DNA from: Actinobacteria bacterium IMCC26207
Lineage (GTDB): Bacteria > Actinomycetota > Acidimicrobiia > Acidimicrobiales > Microtrichaceae
Assembly: GCA_001025035.1 (NCBI GenBank)
Contig: LCZK01000004.1
Span: 1 to 64,000, forward strand
Reading direction: 5' to 3'
Length of the DNA stretch: 64,000 nucleotides
The position numbers and the translations under genes are program-made. Positions 3,630 through 18,434 of the stretch are shown in pieces (the stretch's first letter is position 1; every line of letters begins with the position of its first letter). Under the pieces are notes generated by a model that saw nothing but the letters and a program-made list of their open reading frames with translations, made no database searches and was not told the DNA's origin.

Positions 3630-4787
3630 CTAGAGCACGCGCTCCCAATACGTTCCCTCGAGCATCTGCTCGAGAGTCGCTCGATGCATGATGAGGTCAT
3701 CAATATCTTCAGGCGTCTCGGCCTGACCAAATTTGATTGCCCGCCGCTGCACTTGGCTCATAATCACGCCATGACGAAGCGCTGCGTACATGGTGTAAAA
3801 GTCCATGTCCCGAGGGGCGTACCCGGACTTTTCCTGGTACATCTTCTCGATCTGCGTCCGGTGCATGAACTCTGGCATGCCCGGCAGGCCCATCGAGTTT
3901 GCGATGTCTTCGAAGAAGCGGTGCAAGAAGATCATCCAGGCTAAGTCCACCTCTCGCGGAGCAATCCCGGCCATCTCCCAATCCAACACGGCGATCGGCT
4001 GGAAGTCCTCGTACATGGTGTTACCGATTCGGGCATCTCCCCAGCTGAGACCTGCGGGCCCTTCTTGGTCGGGCCAGTTTGCCTCGAGCCAATCGAAACA
4101 CTTTTCGATCAGAGGTGAACGAATACCATCAGTAGTCACCCATGCGTAATACCCACGTAGTTCTTCTACATGGCGCTGCAGTGGCGTGTCACCCTGAGCA
4201 GAGGAAGCTAGGAAATCAAAGTTGGTTTCGGCATCGGGTATGGCGTGCAGGGCGACAAGCGCATCCACGGTGGTCTCTTGCAGTTTTAGCTGGTTCTCGG
4301 GGGAAGCATCAAAGAGCCAATTGTCGCCAAAGTCATAGGGCAAGACATCAGGCGGCACAACGCCGTAAGCCCTACTCATCACGAAGAATGGCGCTCCAAT
4401 ATGGCTGGCTTCTTCTTCAAGCCAAAACACCTCGGGTACGGGAACCTCGGAAAGTTCTCCCACCTTCGCCATGACCCGGAACTGGGCGTCAAAGTCGTAC
4501 TTCTGAAACACGGGCACTGCTGCCTCGTCTGGCGCAATTCGAAACACCAACGGCCGATCGACCCGCTCGCCGTCTACAACCCAAGTTGCGTCAACGAGCA
4601 CCGTCTCACTTGACATGCCGTTCGACTCAGGCACATGCACCTCATCAACTTTGGGATCGCTCCCTGCTTCAAGGGTGCCTGCCAACCAATTCTGAATATC
4701 CACCTTGGTCTTCTCGGGATCTCGGCGGGACAAATCTGGTCGAGCGGCCTGAGCCGAATCGACGGTTACCTCATGTTGTTCTTCCAT
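3630..4787 (-). CDS. Aminoglycoside-phosphotransferase-fold kinase (ACAD10/11 N-domain-like)
   Basis: This 385-residue protein has the APH/choline kinase fold. The catalytic loop reads LSWGDARIGN and is followed by AVLDWEMAGIAPREVDLAW, which carries the metal-binding Asp. The N-terminal lobe has the usual VDATWVVDG...LVFRIAP region. Homologues beside acyl-CoA genes in actinobacteria resemble the kinase domain of human ACAD10/11, which phosphorylates 4-hydroxyacyl-CoA. That substrate is an inference from fold and context, not shown here. ATG 4787 follows AAGGAAG; a TTG codon just before it (4790) is the alternative. True antibiotic resistance is unlikely. Confidence 0.85.
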   Translation of the reverse strand: MEEQHEVTVDSAQAARPDLSRRDPEKTKVDIQNWLAGTLEAGSDPKVDEVHVPESNGMSSETVLVDATWVVDGERVDRPLVFRIAPDEAAVPVFQKYDFDAQFRVMAKVGELSEVPVPEVFWLEEEASHIGAPFFVMSRAYGVVPPDVLPYDFGDNWLFDASPENQLKLQETTVDALVALHAIPDAETNFDFLASSAQGDTPLQRHVEELRGYYAWVTTDGIRSPLIEKCFDWLEANWPDQEGPAGLSWGDARIGNTMYEDFQPIAVLDWEMAGIAPREVDLAWMIFLHRFFEDIANSMGLPGMPEFMHRTQIEKMYQEKSGYAPRDMDFYTMYAALRHGVIMSQVQRRAIKFGQAETPEDIDDLIMHRATLEQMLEGTYWERVL

Positions 4788-5778: not shown

Positions 5779-5800
5779 TTCTTTGCCACGAGGGAGCACA

Positions 5801-7540
5801 ATGGGAACCGAAGAAGCCACAGCATCATCGACTGCAGCATCATCGACTGCAGCATCATCGACTGCTGCATCATCGACTGCAGCATCATCGACTGCTGGGC
5901 GCGAACAGTTCAACCTGGCTCTAGTCAGCGAGGTTGTTGCCGCTGCAGTGCCAGACCGCGAAGCACTTGTCTTTGGTGATCGTCGCTTTACCTTCGGCCA
6001 ACTTGCCGAGCGCACGAGGCGCTTGGCCTCGTACCTGCATGAACAAGGCCTGGGTTGCCATACCGAGCGCGACACTCTTGAACGCCATGAGTCTGGCCAA
6101 GACCACGTTGCTCTTTACATGTACAACGGCAACGAGTACATCGAGGGAATGCTCGGCTGCTACAAAGCCAGAGCTGCGCCATTCAATGTGAACTACCGCT
6201 ACGTCGAGGAGGAACTGCGCTACCTGCTCGAGGATGCCAACACCAAAGCAGTCATTTATCACGCTGTGTTCGCACCTGCCATGGCTCATGTGCTGAAAGA
6301 CCTGCCGGGTATTCACACTCTCATCCAGGTTGCAGATGACTCTGGCGAACCATTGCTTGAGGGTGCTGTGGATTACGAGCAGGTGATCGCCGACGCTGAT
6401 CCGGCTGGGCCAGCAGTCCTACCCTCCCCCGAAGATTTGTACATCGTCTACACGGGTGGAACCACGGGCATGCCCAAGGGCGTGCTCTGGCGACAAGACG
6501 ACATCTTTATGAATGCCATGGGTGGCAAAGAGGTGGGTACTTGGATTGAGGTCAGCACGGCCGAGGAGATTGCCGAAAAAGCTCGTAACAACTCCGGGTT
6601 CCGACTTATGCCACTCCCGCCGCTCATGCACGGCGCTGCGCAATGGGCGGGGTTCATGATGCTCAACGCTGGTTCCACACTCATCATGACCACCGGTCAC
6701 AATCTGGATGCGAAAGAGGTCTGGACCACTGTCGCTCGAGAAGGAGTCATGTCGATCGTCGTGGTAGGCGATGCCATGGCCCGGCCGCTGCTTGAGGAGT
6801 TGAAGGCAGGCGAGTACGACGTGAGCAGCATGTTCGTTCTGGGGAACGGCGGTGCGCCACTCAGCGCCGCAATCAAAGAAGAGTTTCTTGAACTCCTACC
6901 AAACTTGATGATCAACGATTCGCTCGGATCCTCTGAAACGGGCGCTCAGGCAACACACCTTTCAGTCAAAGGCGGAGTCTCTACCGGACAGTTCAAACCG
7001 GGCCCGGGCGCAGATGTGGTCTCTGAGGACCTGCAAGTAGTGCTCACTGCAGGCCATGACGGAATCGGCTGGCTCGCTCAGGCTGGCAGCGTGCCGCTGG
7101 GCTATCTAGGCGATGCCCCAAAGACTGCTCGAACCTTTCCCACGATTCAGGGCGTGCGCTACTCAGTACCTGGCGACCGAGCCATCAAGCGTGAGGACGG
7201 CGAAATCGACCTGCTCGGCCGTGACTCGCAGTGCATCAACTCAGGCGGCGAAAAAATCTTTGTCGAAGAGGTTGAGATGGCAATCATCTCTCACCCGGCT
7301 GTGACCGATGTGCTGGTATGCGGGCGGCCAAGCGAGCGTTGGGGGGCAGAGGTGGTGGCAGTGGTTCAACTCGTTCCGGGGGCTGCTGTCGAGGAATCTG
7401 AGTTGTCGGCCCATGCAAACTTGTCGGTTGCCCGTTACAAGCTGCCCAAGGGCTGGATCTTTGTTGATTCAGTGCAGCGCTCCCCTTCTGGCAAGGCGGA
7501 CTACCGCTGGGCCAAAGAACTAGCAGCACAGTCGGAATAG
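5801..7540 (+). CDS. Acyl-CoA synthetase (AMP-dependent, FadD-like)
   Basis: This 579-residue ANL-superfamily enzyme activates a carboxylate as acyl-AMP and then acyl-CoA. The P-loop YTGGTTGMPKG, the NSGGEKIF region and the C-terminal catalytic lysine motif SPSGKADYR are present. The N-terminus (about residues 8-33) is an ASSTA repeat encoded by five 15-bp units; the recognisable fold begins afterwards at FNLALVSEVV. ATG 5801 follows GAGGGAG at about 6 nt. An earlier in-frame start at 5663 would read through the operator and is rejected. The chain-length or steroid side-chain substrate is not known. Confidence 0.92.
   Translation: MGTEEATASSTAASSTAASSTAASSTAASSTAGREQFNLALVSEVVAAAVPDREALVFGDRRFTFGQLAERTRRLASYLHEQGLGCHTERDTLERHESGQDHVALYMYNGNEYIEGMLGCYKARAAPFNVNYRYVEEELRYLLEDANTKAVIYHAVFAPAMAHVLKDLPGIHTLIQVADDSGEPLLEGAVDYEQVIADADPAGPAVLPSPEDLYIVYTGGTTGMPKGVLWRQDDIFMNAMGGKEVGTWIEVSTAEEIAEKARNNSGFRLMPLPPLMHGAAQWAGFMMLNAGSTLIMTTGHNLDAKEVWTTVAREGVMSIVVVGDAMARPLLEELKAGEYDVSSMFVLGNGGAPLSAAIKEEFLELLPNLMINDSLGSSETGAQATHLSVKGGVSTGQFKPGPGADVVSEDLQVVLTAGHDGIGWLAQAGSVPLGYLGDAPKTARTFPTIQGVRYSVPGDRAIKREDGEIDLLGRDSQCINSGGEKIFVEEVEMAIISHPAVTDVLVCGRPSERWGAEVVAVVQLVPGAAVEESELSAHANLSVARYKLPKGWIFVDSVQRSPSGKADYRWAKELAAQSE
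5821..5895 (+). repeat. 15-bp tandem repeat, five units, in acyl-CoA synthetase N-terminus
   Basis: Five consecutive copies of AGCATCATCGACTGC are seen, with one base differing in the fourth. They keep frame and encode Ala-Ser-Ser-Thr-Ala repeats, so gain or loss of units would only change the length of a flexible leader. Confidence 0.95.
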
Positions 7541-7580
7541 TTCAGCTCAGTCGGTCTAGCCGAATCAGCGGATTCTGGCT

Positions 7581-7625
7581 ATTGGGTTGCGTAGCTGTCG
7601 CAGATCCACCGCCCTGCAACCCAAT
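7581..7625. repeat. 45-bp nested palindrome, copy 1
   Basis: ATTGGGTTGC at the left pairs with GCAACCCAAT at the right. The 25-bp centre resembles that of copies 2 and 3 but its inner stem is imperfect. ATTCTGGCT precedes it, as it does copy 2, giving a 70-bp period between copies 1 and 2. The gap between acyl-CoA synthetase and the AbiEi/DUF559 gene consists mostly of these two copies. Confidence 0.9.
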
Positions 7626-7650
7626 CGGACCGGCTCGGCGCATTCTGGCT

Positions 7651-7695
7651 ATTGGGTTGCGTAGCGGTCGCAGATCGACCCCCGTGCAACCCAAT
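7651..7695. repeat. 45-bp nested palindrome, copy 2
   Basis: This is the most complete copy. Its outer arms extend to 13 bp (7648-7660 with 7686-7698). Inside lies a second stem GGTCG-CAGAT-CGACC, so single-stranded DNA or RNA could fold into a two-level hairpin. It is in the same orientation as copies 1 and 3. Confidence 0.92.
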
Positions 7696-7817
7696 AGCTG
7701 AATTGGACCTGCTCGGAAAGAGGGGGTGCCCTCCCCGCTGACAAATCGGCAGCTTGGCAGCAGGCTGCTGTGGTGAATTCCCGTACCGCAGCCAAAGTTG
7801 GGCCACCCACAAATCCC

Positions 7818-8756
7818 ATGGCTGCGCTACTCAAAAAGGCTGGCTCGCAACACGGAGTGTTCACATCTGCTCAGGCAAGGGAGTTTGGTGTCAGTCGCTC
7901 GCAGCTGAGAACTGCAGTTCGGCGCGGCACCGTGCAACAGCCTGGCCGAGGACTCTTTCTGGTAAGCGGCGCGCCTCGGACTTGGGAGCAGGAAGTCATG
8001 TTGGCCGTGTGCTCGCTCGGTGGTGTTGCCTCACATCGTTGCGCTGCAAGGTTGCATGGTCTCGACGGATTCGCTCATGCACCAGTAGAGATCACCATGG
8101 CCCATTCGGGCAGTCGTAAAATCGCTAAGTTTTTGACCCACCGGTCCAGGCAGTTCGACCAGATTACGCCTGTGCTCATGAGCGGGATTCCGACTACCTC
8201 GGTAGCTCGCACGCTGGTTGACCTTGGCGCTGTCGTGGATGATGACAAGGTGGAACAGGCACTCGATGATTCAATTCGCCGCGGATTCAACCTGCGCTGG
8301 ATCAACGAAACGCTTGAGCAGTTCATGCGACCAGGAGTCACCGGCTGTGGCGCCCTACTGAGGGTCCTTGCTCGACCAGATCGCCGGGGGCCGATCCCCG
8401 ATTCAACCTTTGAACGACTGGTCCAACGAGTCATCAAGGCGAAGGGGCTTGCCGCGCCGGAGCGGCAGATCATCGTGAAGTGTCTCGGACAAAAGAAGGG
8501 GTATTCGATTGATTGTGCTTGGCCGGAATTCAAGCTTGGCTTAGAAGCCGATTCAGAATTGTGGCACTGGGGGCCCAGACGCGGACGGGTCGCCCGGCAA
8601 CGCCACAATCGTCTGACTGCCGCTGGCTGGGAAATGATTTACGCAAGCTGGCAAGACCTCGAGGACTCCCGGGAACTAATCCAGCAACTCAGGTTGGCCT
8701 TGAATAGGCATTGGGTTGCACAGAGGTCGCTGATCGACCCCCCTGCAACCCAATAG
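7818..8756 (+). CDS. AbiEi-type wHTH plus DUF559 (Vsr-like) endonuclease-fold protein
   Basis: This 312-residue protein is not linked to a toxin gene. Residues 1-60 match the winged-helix antitoxin domain of the AbiEi type (VFTSAQAREFGVSRSQLRTAV, then GLFLVSGAP). The C-terminal ~90 residues look like DUF559/Vsr: IDCAWPEFKLGLEADS, WHWG, then RQRHNRLTAAGWEMIYASW. The Asp and Glu of a PD-(D/E)xK-type site are visible. The motif lacks the usual lysine at a clear position, so activity is uncertain. ATG 7818 matches where the family normally begins; GTG 7770 is the alternative. Neither has a ribosome site. The last ~15 residues and the stop codon come from a 45-bp palindromic repeat, and two more copies lie just upstream. 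Confidence 0.75.
   Translation: MAALLKKAGSQHGVFTSAQAREFGVSRSQLRTAVRRGTVQQPGRGLFLVSGAPRTWEQEVMLAVCSLGGVASHRCAARLHGLDGFAHAPVEITMAHSGSRKIAKFLTHRSRQFDQITPVLMSGIPTTSVARTLVDLGAVVDDDKVEQALDDSIRRGFNLRWINETLEQFMRPGVTGCGALLRVLARPDRRGPIPDSTFERLVQRVIKAKGLAAPERQIIVKCLGQKKGYSIDCAWPEFKLGLEADSELWHWGPRRGRVARQRHNRLTAAGWEMIYASWQDLEDSRELIQQLRLALNRHWVAQRSLIDPPATQ
8710..8754. repeat. 45-bp nested palindrome, copy 3, inside the 3' end of the nuclease gene
   Basis: ATTGGGTTGC and GCAACCCAAT enclose an inner GGTCG-CTGAT-CGACC stem. The right arm contributes the T of the TAG stop codon of the AbiEi/DUF559 gene. Read in frame, the element encodes the final residues VAQRSLIDPPATQ. Confidence 0.92.
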
Positions 8757-8858
8757 CTCAGGAGGGGACGGGGCTTTGCGGGACGGGCTGTGCGGGGTCG
8801 GGACGGTTGGGCTTGAGCCTGCCTTGCTCCGAGGCTCAACGCGTACAACAGTTAGAGA

Positions 8859-10040
8859 ATGCAGGACTCCGAGAACCGCCCGTTCGATGCAGACAACCAC
8901 TACTACGAAGCTATTGATGCGTTCACACGCCACCTTGATCCCAGCTGGGGGCCACGCACCTTGCAGTGGGCAGAGATCAACGGCCGGCAGTACAACGTTC
9001 TGGGCGGAAAAGTTTCTCGGGCTGTGGTCAACCCCACGTTCGACCCGGTGGCAAGCCCTGGGGTACTGAAGGACTACTTCCGCGGTAACCCCAACGGGGA
9101 TAACCCACTGGAACTTCTCAAAGCCCGCGACCGGGTCAAAGACGAGTACCGCAACCGTGATGCGCGGCTGCTGACCATGGACTCCCACGGACTTGAGAAA
9201 ATCTGGCTCTTCCCGACCCTAGGAATGGTTTATGAGGAAGAACTCCGTACCGATCCTGAGGCCGTAGCGGTGCTGTTTCGGGCATTCAATCGTTGGGTCG
9301 AAGAGGATTGGGGATTCAATTATCAAAACCGCATCTTTGCCGCCCCGTACATCACTCTGGCCGATCTCGACTTCGCCATCAGCGAACTGGAGTGGGCTCT
9401 GGACAAAGGGGCACGGACAATCGTCATGCGTCCGGCTGCGCCAACAACCTTGCTGGGTCGGCGATCACCAACCGACACGCAGTTCGACCCGTTCTGGGCG
9501 CGAGTCAACGAGGCTGGAATCACCGTGGTCGTCCACGCCGGCGACGCAGGGTACTCAGCGAATGGTTACGCGACGGACGGGTTTAGCTCAAACTTCAGCA
9601 ACTCGGTTCCTCAACCCATCAAGATGCTGCAGCTCGAACGTCCGATTGAGGATTTCTTGGCCTCGCTCATCACTGACCAACTCTTTCATCGCTTTCCTAA
9701 CCTTCGCATCGCCTCGGTGGAGAACGGCGCAGGGTTTCTTCGCGGATTGTTCCACCGCTTAGACGCATTGGGCCACAAAATGTCGGGTTGGTTCCCGGAA
9801 GACCCAATCGAAACGTTTCGTCGGCATATTTGGATCAACCCATTCTGGGAGGACAACGTGCATGAACTCCTGGAACTGATGGGTCCCGAGCGAGTGATCT
9901 TTGGTTCTGACTGGCCACATATCGAGGGTATGCCAGTGCCACTGGATTACTTGGAAGAACTGACTGGCCTAGAACAAAAAGTTGTGGACCTAGTCACCCG
10001 GGAGAACACAGCGGAATTGAACGAACTACGCCCGAGCTAA
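8859..10040 (+). CDS. Amidohydrolase-2 family metal-dependent hydrolase (ACMSD-like)
   Basis: This 393-residue protein has a TIM-barrel amidohydrolase pattern. FDADNHYYE at the start carries the first metal ligands, a histidine sits in VVVHAGD in the middle, and FGSDWPHIEG near the C-terminus carries the catalytic Asp. Family members are decarboxylases or hydrolases of ring-cleavage products. In actinobacteria many copies lie among acyl-CoA and steroid genes, as here. ATG 8859 fits the family start; the preceding ~100 bp are G-rich with short repeats and hold no gene. Substrate unknown. Confidence 0.88.
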   Translation: MQDSENRPFDADNHYYEAIDAFTRHLDPSWGPRTLQWAEINGRQYNVLGGKVSRAVVNPTFDPVASPGVLKDYFRGNPNGDNPLELLKARDRVKDEYRNRDARLLTMDSHGLEKIWLFPTLGMVYEEELRTDPEAVAVLFRAFNRWVEEDWGFNYQNRIFAAPYITLADLDFAISELEWALDKGARTIVMRPAAPTTLLGRRSPTDTQFDPFWARVNEAGITVVVHAGDAGYSANGYATDGFSSNFSNSVPQPIKMLQLERPIEDFLASLITDQLFHRFPNLRIASVENGAGFLRGLFHRLDALGHKMSGWFPEDPIETFRRHIWINPFWEDNVHELLELMGPERVIFGSDWPHIEGMPVPLDYLEELTGLEQKVVDLVTRENTAELNELRPS

Positions 10041-17561: not shown

Positions 17562-18362
17562 TTAGAGCTTTGCTACCTGAGAGAATTCGAGTTCAACAGG
17601 GGTTTCACGGCCGAAGATATTGACGAGGACCTTCATCTTCATATGGTCCTCATCGATGTCGACTACCGATCCGGAGAAGTCAGCAAACGGACCTTCCTTG
17701 ACGCGCACTGTCTCGTTCAATTCGTATTCAAGACGAGGACGTGCACGCTTGGGCGAGTCATCGGTGGGGCTATCCGCAGTGCGAATAAACTCTTCGACCT
17801 CTCTGCGAGACAGCGGAGAGGGCTTGTTTCCGGCACCGACAAAGCCAGTGACTCCTGGAGTATTGCGAATCACGTACCAGCTGTCATCGTCGAGCGAGCA
17901 GCGGATAATCAAGTAGCCGGGGAACATCTTTTTCTGTGCGATGACCTTCTTGCCAGCTTTGAATTCGGTCACTTCTTCCATGGGAATGGCGACCTCGTGG
18001 ATCTTTGCATCCATTGCCATCGACCGGGTTCGGGCCTCGATGTTTTGGCGAACCTTGTTCTCATATCCCGACTGGGTATGTAGGACGTACCACTTGCCCG
18101 GCTTGTCATAAGGCGAAATTGCAGCCTCGGCTGCAGCAGCGGCCGCTTGCGCTAGCAGTTCCTCCTCTGCGAGGACCTCGGCCACCTCCTCGGCAACGAT
18201 CTCTTCAACAATCGCTTCCTCGATCAACTCTTCAACAATCTCTTCAACGATCGCTTCTTCGATCAGTTCTTCAACGATCTCTTCAACAATCTCTTCCTCG
18301 ATCAGTTCTTCAACGATCTCTTGTTCACTATCAGTCACGCTTGCTCCGTCATCATCAGTCAT
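17562..18362 (-). CDS. nusG: Transcription termination/antitermination factor NusG with acidic repeat extension
   Basis: The 266-residue product has a normal NusG core of ~180 residues: the NGN domain from KWYVLHTQSGYE to the KMFPGYLII region, then the KOW domain VRVKEGPFADFSGSV ending EFSQVAKL. NusG binds RNA polymerase and couples it to ribosomes or Rho. The first ~85 residues are unusual: an acidic helix built of three 13-residue repeats (IVEELIEEAIVEE) and an Ala-rich linker. ATG 18362 with GGAGA 9 nt upstream is preferred to ATG 18413. It follows secE by 72 nt. Confidence 0.97.
   Translation of the reverse strand: MTDDDGASVTDSEQEIVEELIEEEIVEEIVEELIEEAIVEEIVEELIEEAIVEEIVAEEVAEVLAEEELLAQAAAAAAEAAISPYDKPGKWYVLHTQSGYENKVRQNIEARTRSMAMDAKIHEVAIPMEEVTEFKAGKKVIAQKKMFPGYLIIRCSLDDDSWYVIRNTPGVTGFVGAGNKPSPLSRREVEEFIRTADSPTDDSPKRARPRLEYELNETVRVKEGPFADFSGSVVDIDEDHMKMKVLVNIFGRETPVELEFSQVAKL
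18201..18317 (-). repeat. 39-bp tandem repeat, three units, in nusG
   Basis: Three 39-bp units each encode a 13-residue acidic stretch (IVEELIEE then A or E, then IVEE) at residues 16-54 of NusG. A degenerate fourth unit follows. Frame is kept, so unit number could vary without disrupting the core domains. Confidence 0.9.
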
Positions 18363-18434
18363 TCGTTCAGATTCTCCGTGGTCAGCACTGTCGGCTTCGG
18401 CAGGCCTCATCATTCAGGGTGGATGGTTCGATGG

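Follow-up and report, generated by a model that had tools for sequence, protein, structure and literature searches.

Cognate palindromes bracket AbiEi–EDxHD nuclease genes in Actinomycetota: a probable REPtron-like class

In a 64,000-nucleotide stretch of the genome of Actinobacteria bacterium IMCC26207 (contig LCZK01000004.1, positions 1 to 64,000; hereafter the window), a gene for a predicted AbiEi–nuclease fusion lies between copies of a 45-bp palindrome, P1. This locus is probably a member of a widespread nuclease–palindrome class, REPtron-like, in which each enzyme has its own cognate palindrome. Extragenic palindromes for which no enzyme is known are frequent yet lack an explanation; AbiEi/DUF559 proteins, for which orphan antitoxin is the usual annotation, are plentiful in Actinomycetota. 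Should the pairing prove functional, a large annotation class would take on a new meaning, REP-like dispersal would have evolved with an unrelated nuclease, and every genome would supply its own enzyme–site pair with which to test specificity and the rapid turnover of specificity. In the open-access literature, to which the search was confined, no description of an AbiEi/DUF559–palindrome pairing was found; the pairing thus appears provisionally to be new, though it would act in a way akin to a known kind.

P1 palindromes at the window locus and in the genus

Three copies of P1 surround the AbiEi/DUF559 gene (Table 1), as an earlier note made from the sequence alone had claimed, and P1-type matches occurred in 0 of 100 shuffles of the window. 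The unit consists of outer arms ATTGGGTTGC/GCAACCCAAT, usually longer (GGCTATTGGGTTGCA/TGCAACCCAATAGCC), and an inner stem GGTCG/CGACC, which is present in the family, as that note had described it, but broken in copy 1. The note was also correct that the upstream copies form a tandem pair, the 70-bp period of which takes in flanking sequence (88% over 66 nt), and that all three copies share one orientation (direct score 36.5 versus 23 inverted). Copy 3 runs along the 3' end of the gene, overlapping its last 15 codons, and ends with a T that is the first base of the stop codon. When folded as single-stranded DNA, copies 2 and 3 perform far better than shuffles, while the weaker folding of copy 1 goes with its damaged inner stem. 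There was no Rfam RNA match in 7000-9500.

Table 1. Coordinates of the genes, domains and palindromes (window numbering unless a contig, C, is given)
Feature	Position	Strand	Remarks
Tandem array of two ~66-nt units holding P1 copies 1 and 2	7560..7695	+	70-bp period
P1 copy 1	7581..7625	+	upstream of gene; inner stem degraded; fold z -2.6
P1 copy 2	7651..7695	+	upstream, intact; arms reach 7648-7698; fold z -7.4
AbiEi-EDxHD gene (AbiEi_4 + MTES_1575/DUF559)	7770..8756	+	328 aa; start GTG 7770 or ATG 7818
AbiEi-like region, winged helix and AbiEi C-terminal domain	7821..8288	+	residues 18-173
Vsr/EDxHD-type nuclease domain	8409..8660	+	residues 214-297
Ala275 codon	8592..8594	+	Asp in 52/56 homologues
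P1 copy 3	8710..8754	+	gene 3' end; fold z -6.7
P2 copy before C7 gene	C7:63190-63234
C7 AbiEi/DUF559 gene	C7:63307-64179		flanked by P2
P2 copy after C7 gene	C7:64215-64259
C9 AbiEi/DUF559 gene	C9:313308-314366		between two copies of P4
P3 sites in G000	C4:173811; C9:4061; C9:6677; C8:50357; C7:190637		C7 site: L062 ~4634-4682

With a covariance model based on 41 copies, 12 P1 copies are found in the window's genome (24 matches when both strands are counted), and each of five further genomes of the genus has between 2 and 10, so that the proposed REP-like dispersed family does exist. In the 41 copies, the core of the outer arms is for the most part invariant and the inner 25 bases are variable; the loops are less conserved than the suggestion of conserved loops between conserved stems implied. 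The inner stem carries two paired compensatory changes (GGTC/GACC to GAGC/GCTC), but doubly changed pairs are equally many in shuffles, and these changes are taken as support for symmetry only. Weak matches of the model in other genera (best 24 bits) proved to be other palindromes.

P1 sites are mostly orthologous across congeners, and the size of the arrays differs between species: upstream of the window gene there is one unit in G002 and G003, two in G005 and at least two in G004, and elsewhere there are one or two at site E and two or three at site G. The genes that follow a given palindrome are not the same in every species. Synteny breaks were observed at or beside P1 in L065 relative to L074/L075 (site F), in L062 relative to L045 (site C), and among L066, L053 and L070 (site H).

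The window protein

The window gene appears to encode AbiEi fused to an EDxHD nuclease of the Vsr/I-Bth0305I-like kind. Its N-terminal region matches Pfam AbiEi_4 (1.6e-10) and PADLOC AbiEi (5.7e-28), and its C-terminal region matches REase_MTES_1575/DUF559 in both collections. With an AlphaFold2 model of pLDDT 92.6, Foldseek relates the N-terminus to AbiEi (6y8q, E 1e-7) and also to Rv2827c, and the C-terminus to the EDxHD homing endonuclease I-Bth0305I (3r3p, TM 0.80 on the target); sequence profiles also match I-Bth0305I, PvuRts1I and Vsr. The predicted structure thus agrees with the earlier proposal of a Vsr/DUF559 fold joined to an antitoxin-type winged helix. The family motif comprises E215, D248, E259, H266 and D275, and most of the 56 homologues have it. 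The window protein keeps the first four of these residues and carries Ala at 275, in common with its orthologues L054 and L162, which leaves its EDxHD motif incomplete. A dN/dS of about 0.10-0.14 against congeners (dS relative to G003 and G007 is saturated) indicates that the protein is kept under purifying selection. Taken together with Ala275, this suggests that what selection retains in the window protein may be something other than nuclease activity.

The neighbours of the window gene are an AMP-binding ligase and an amidohydrolase (Amidohydro_2), and those of the C9 gene are HNH and GNAT. No AbiEii/DUF1814 nucleotidyltransferase toxin gene adjoins either gene, consistent with the earlier remark that a toxin partner is not nearby. 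The window gene is found at the same locus in G002-G005 (the G001 assembly is 62% complete). A phage origin was rejected, as there was no PHROG match. Two contigs of metagenome-assembled genomes, L037 (CAMDAT010000129.1) and L040 (CAMDLX010000022.1), are titled Bifidobacterium breve; these titles look wrong, as the contigs have 96-97% protein identity with, and the same locus as, this genus. Elsewhere in the window, a NusG-like ORF (17562-18413, minus strand) carries near its N-terminus a long acidic repeat (EEIVEELIEEAIVEE...), and the N-terminus of the AMP-binding ligase ORF has a short in-frame repeat of ASSTA units at ~5800-5880.

Bracketing in the genome and across the phylum

The window's genome has three AbiEi/DUF559 genes, and all three are bracketed by matching palindromes, P1 for the window gene, P2 (ATTGGCGCCGGTAAGC N13 GCTTACCGGCGCCAAT, 45 bp) for the C7 gene and P4 (CAACCCGGATGATT..) for the C9 gene. 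These palindromes are mutually unrelated in sequence, and P2 and P4 are, like P1, also dispersed through the genome. In 1.26 Mb of genome sequence, sampled by region, 641 genes with lengths of 600-1500 bp were predicted. Six of them have matching flanks: the three AbiEi/DUF559 genes and 3 of the other 638, the repeats of which belong to none of P1-P4.

The earlier note had proposed that P1 copies be mapped relative to DUF559 genes. None of the other P1 copies in the genome adjoins another AbiEi/DUF559 gene, and on P1 alone the idea of a class of repeats with a nuclease would fail. Since the palindrome family differs from one DUF559 gene to the next, however, mapping the P1 consensus would have led to its wrongful rejection; the association of AbiEi/DUF559 genes with palindromes as such is strong. 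The non-autonomous copies occur singly, as solo units.

The association also reaches far beyond the window locus. Homologues were taken from further genera, families and classes. When the 400 nt preceding the start were compared with the region around the stop, 60 of 117 homologues proved to share a flank repeat at a score of at least 20 (39/68 in the order set, 21/49 in the phylum set), a proportion that is no unbiased estimate, the loci having been picked by match quality. In contrast, this score was reached by 0 of 1,170 mismatched-pair controls and 0 of 165 shifted-window controls per orientation. The remaining 57 homologues are without a matching bracket in the 400-nt windows. Of the 60 brackets, 45 score as palindromes beyond the 95th percentile of shuffles; their median length is 48 bp (interquartile range 43-51). 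The flanks fit better as direct repeats at 40 genes and as inverted repeats at 20, P2 at C7 among them, which rules out that all brackets are direct repeats. A plasmid search for a named example yielded partial, distant matches only.

Cognate dispersal, turnover and placement

When 14 bracket palindromes were compared with six genomes, each genome, among the matches listed, matched only its own palindromes. Among these same listed matches, the palindromes lie at about 20 places in G016, at 10 and 7 for two families in G009, at 9 and 5 in G035 and, in the case of P2, at about 20 places in the window's genome.

Orthologous genes have differing brackets. The window gene and L162, which is from another genus and 60% identical, lie after one and the same AMP ligase (identical at 168 of 216 residues), and their brackets are unrelated. 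Similarly, L068, L164 and L192, from three genera, share the thiolase upstream, and two of them the downstream gene, with three unrelated brackets. The clades concerned have support of 0.94-0.96. The gene is thus inherited at a fixed position, whereas its two flanking copies change jointly and the new sequence comes to lie at scattered sites of that genome. Independent point mutations, at a dozen sites or more, could not give such a joint change, but copying of the palindrome can, and this is the main, if indirect, argument for a putative mobilisation of the palindromes by the nuclease.

The dispersed copies are mainly extragenic: 28 of the 30 copies of P1-P4 in the sampled sequence, about 90% of which is coding, are intergenic. 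Within the genus, the interspecies variation seen consists of array copy number and one clear 2.4-kb segment between two P2 copies. This segment, at C6:110755-113218 in G000 (on the L061 contig), carries a phd/PIN-like toxin-antitoxin pair; G002 and G005 have a single P2 at its site, and part of the segment adjoins a P2 elsewhere in G005 (loci L234, L235 and L238). The earlier note had envisaged a comparison of empty and filled sites, but no clean empty site, of a solo palindrome or of a gene-bearing segment, was found within the genus. One candidate, P2b at G005 and G003, is really one repeat fewer in a partial tandem duplication, and at two others, G005 site F and G003 site D, the sequence stops at contig ends.

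A proposed mechanism and its alternatives

The bracketing, the cognate dispersal and the joint change of flanking copies are probably explained by a REPtron-like mechanism. The AbiEi-type domain would bind the inverted repeat of ~45-50 bp, with two monomers on the palindrome or on its extruded hairpin. The bound enzyme would nick or cut the palindrome or hairpin, and repair or replication at the cut would copy the palindrome, giving rise to arrays and new intergenic sites. AbiEi recognises a pair of 23-bp inverted repeats separated by 3 bp (PMC7319586), and the target on which I-Bth0305I forms a dimer is nearly 60 bp long (PMC3943268); these site sizes fit a dimer on a palindrome of ~48 bp. 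That the protein binds and cuts its palindrome, and so causes the dispersal, is what we infer. Counting against this reading are the failure to find a clean empty site of a solo palindrome within the genus, the shared orthology of most P1 sites, the 57 homologues with no matching bracket in the 400-nt windows, Ala275 in a protein under purifying selection, and the dispersal of a further family, P3, for which no partner gene was found. In the window enzyme one conserved acidic residue is missing, so that P1 may still be bound there but hardly mobilised any more. The chances seem evenly poised that AbiEi-EDxHD proteins are a second, independently evolved class of palindrome-spreading enzymes, convergent with RAYT, with co-evolving palindromes of ~48 bp that also serve as junctions for segment exchange.

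The main rival is that the palindromes are operators, with the AbiEi-type domain acting at the upstream copy to control its own gene, the downstream copy ending transcription and the dispersed copies forming a regulon. AbiEi and Rv2827c repress their own operons via inverted repeats of similar size (PMC7319586), and the N-terminal fold of the window protein matches AbiEi. Commonly, ~40 nt separate the end of the upstream copy from the inferred start, and the window protein is under purifying selection despite its lost catalytic residue. An operator role could also hold for the upstream copy. Nevertheless, the same palindrome is also found after the stop codon, and 7400-9000 contains no terminator-like site or T tract. 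None of the 11 intergenic P1 copies lies in a divergent promoter gap, although such gaps make up 33% of intergenic length; they sit in tandem or convergent gaps, each downstream of at least one gene. P2 copies are found in divergent gaps too. Tandem arrays, fast sequence turnover between orthologues and lineage-specific scatter are likewise atypical of a regulon, and the operator explanation as a whole is judged unlikely.

A homing-type mobile unit, in which solo palindromes are cut by the nuclease and repair, with the palindromes as homology, brings in a copy of the gene, is more doubtful still. The fold of the nuclease domain is closest to that of a homing endonuclease, the P1-adjacent genes differ between species at sites F and H, and the 2.4-kb P2-bounded segment, with its single-P2 counterparts, could be read as such a unit. 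That segment, however, was exchanged without an AbiEi/DUF559 gene, and ordinary recombination between repeats would suffice and may explain both the exchange and the changed P1 neighbours. Furthermore, the gene is fixed across genera (between thiolase and, on the other side, recR in one case, and beside the AMP ligase in the other) while the palindromes change, and a gene-free palindrome was not seen at the thiolase and AMP ligase loci. As the gene stays in place, homing-type movement is less likely.

Finally, it is very improbable that the protein has nothing to do with the palindromes and that these are ordinary structures of 3' ends, serving as bidirectional terminators or mRNA stabilisers. 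This reading is consistent with the position of P1 near gene ends in tandem or convergent gaps, with the good folding of the sequences and with the compensatory inner-stem changes. The bracketing statistics for the genome and the phylum contradict it, however; it also leaves unexplained the invariant arm sequence and the gene-specific families, and it is at odds with the missing terminator.

Comparison with known systems

The preferred reading, a nuclease that spreads its own palindrome, has its closest parallel in the REP/RAYT systems. In these, each palindrome type goes with a single nuclease gene that has copies of it at its flanks, further copies of 21-65 nt are scattered between genes, the gene is seemingly immobile as a unit, and several types occur per genome (PMC6006769). 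The AbiEi-EDxHD gene is similarly flanked by its own repeat (3/3 in the genome, 60/117 across the phylum), has dispersed, mostly extragenic copies in the same genome, occurs with several palindrome types per genome and seemingly does not move as a unit. The enzymes differ, being AbiEi + EDxHD here and HuH/Y1 there. The RAYT HuH/Y1 transposase (PF01797) was found in 0 of 6 genus genomes, with controls positive in 5 of 14, which confirms the earlier claim that RAYT is missing and rules out that one was overlooked at first reading. Moreover, a GTAG or CGTC foot is present in 0 of 45 palindromes, and the palindromes are longer than those of REP/RAYT and wholly replaced in sequence between genera. 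The system would, therefore, work like REP/RAYT but is no member of it, as the HuH/Y1 enzyme and the tag feet are absent. REP-like palindromes with no known RAYT partner have been described as GTAG/CGTC repeats (PMC3733652); those are defined by tags that are absent here, and no AbiEi/DUF559 partner is reported in the passages of that paper that were searched.

With AbiE type IV toxin-antitoxin systems, the window protein shares the N-terminal two-domain AbiEi fold (Foldseek, PADLOC), and known AbiEi proteins bind paired inverted repeats. Unlike in AbiE, a C-terminal nuclease is added, the AbiEii/DUF1814 toxin is absent from the side of the gene, and the palindromes are also downstream and genome-wide. 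It is thus not an AbiE toxin-antitoxin pair, the toxin gene being absent at the window and C9 loci. With EDxHD homing endonucleases and Vsr it shares the nuclease fold and the E..D..E..H..D motif of the family. Unlike EDxHD homing endonucleases, it is encoded by a free-standing chromosomal gene fused to AbiEi, with no intron and at a fixed locus, whereas Vsr differs in acting on T:G mismatches. Integron attC sites were also considered, on account of the tandem palindromes and cassette-like genes, and set aside, since the arms have GTT at the 5' end and AAC at the 3' end, and the core sites of attC have the reverse arrangement.

Further observations on dispersed palindromes

P3 (TCTGGAGCGG..TCGACAcatacTGTCGA..CGCTCCAGA) is a further dispersed palindrome family, present in all genomes of the genus. 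No AbiEi/DUF559 partner gene was found for it, and it is either an orphan family or one with another enzyme. By eye, the P2 copies at C9:1349, C7:68368 and C6:110755 lie directly downstream of apparent serine tRNA genes.
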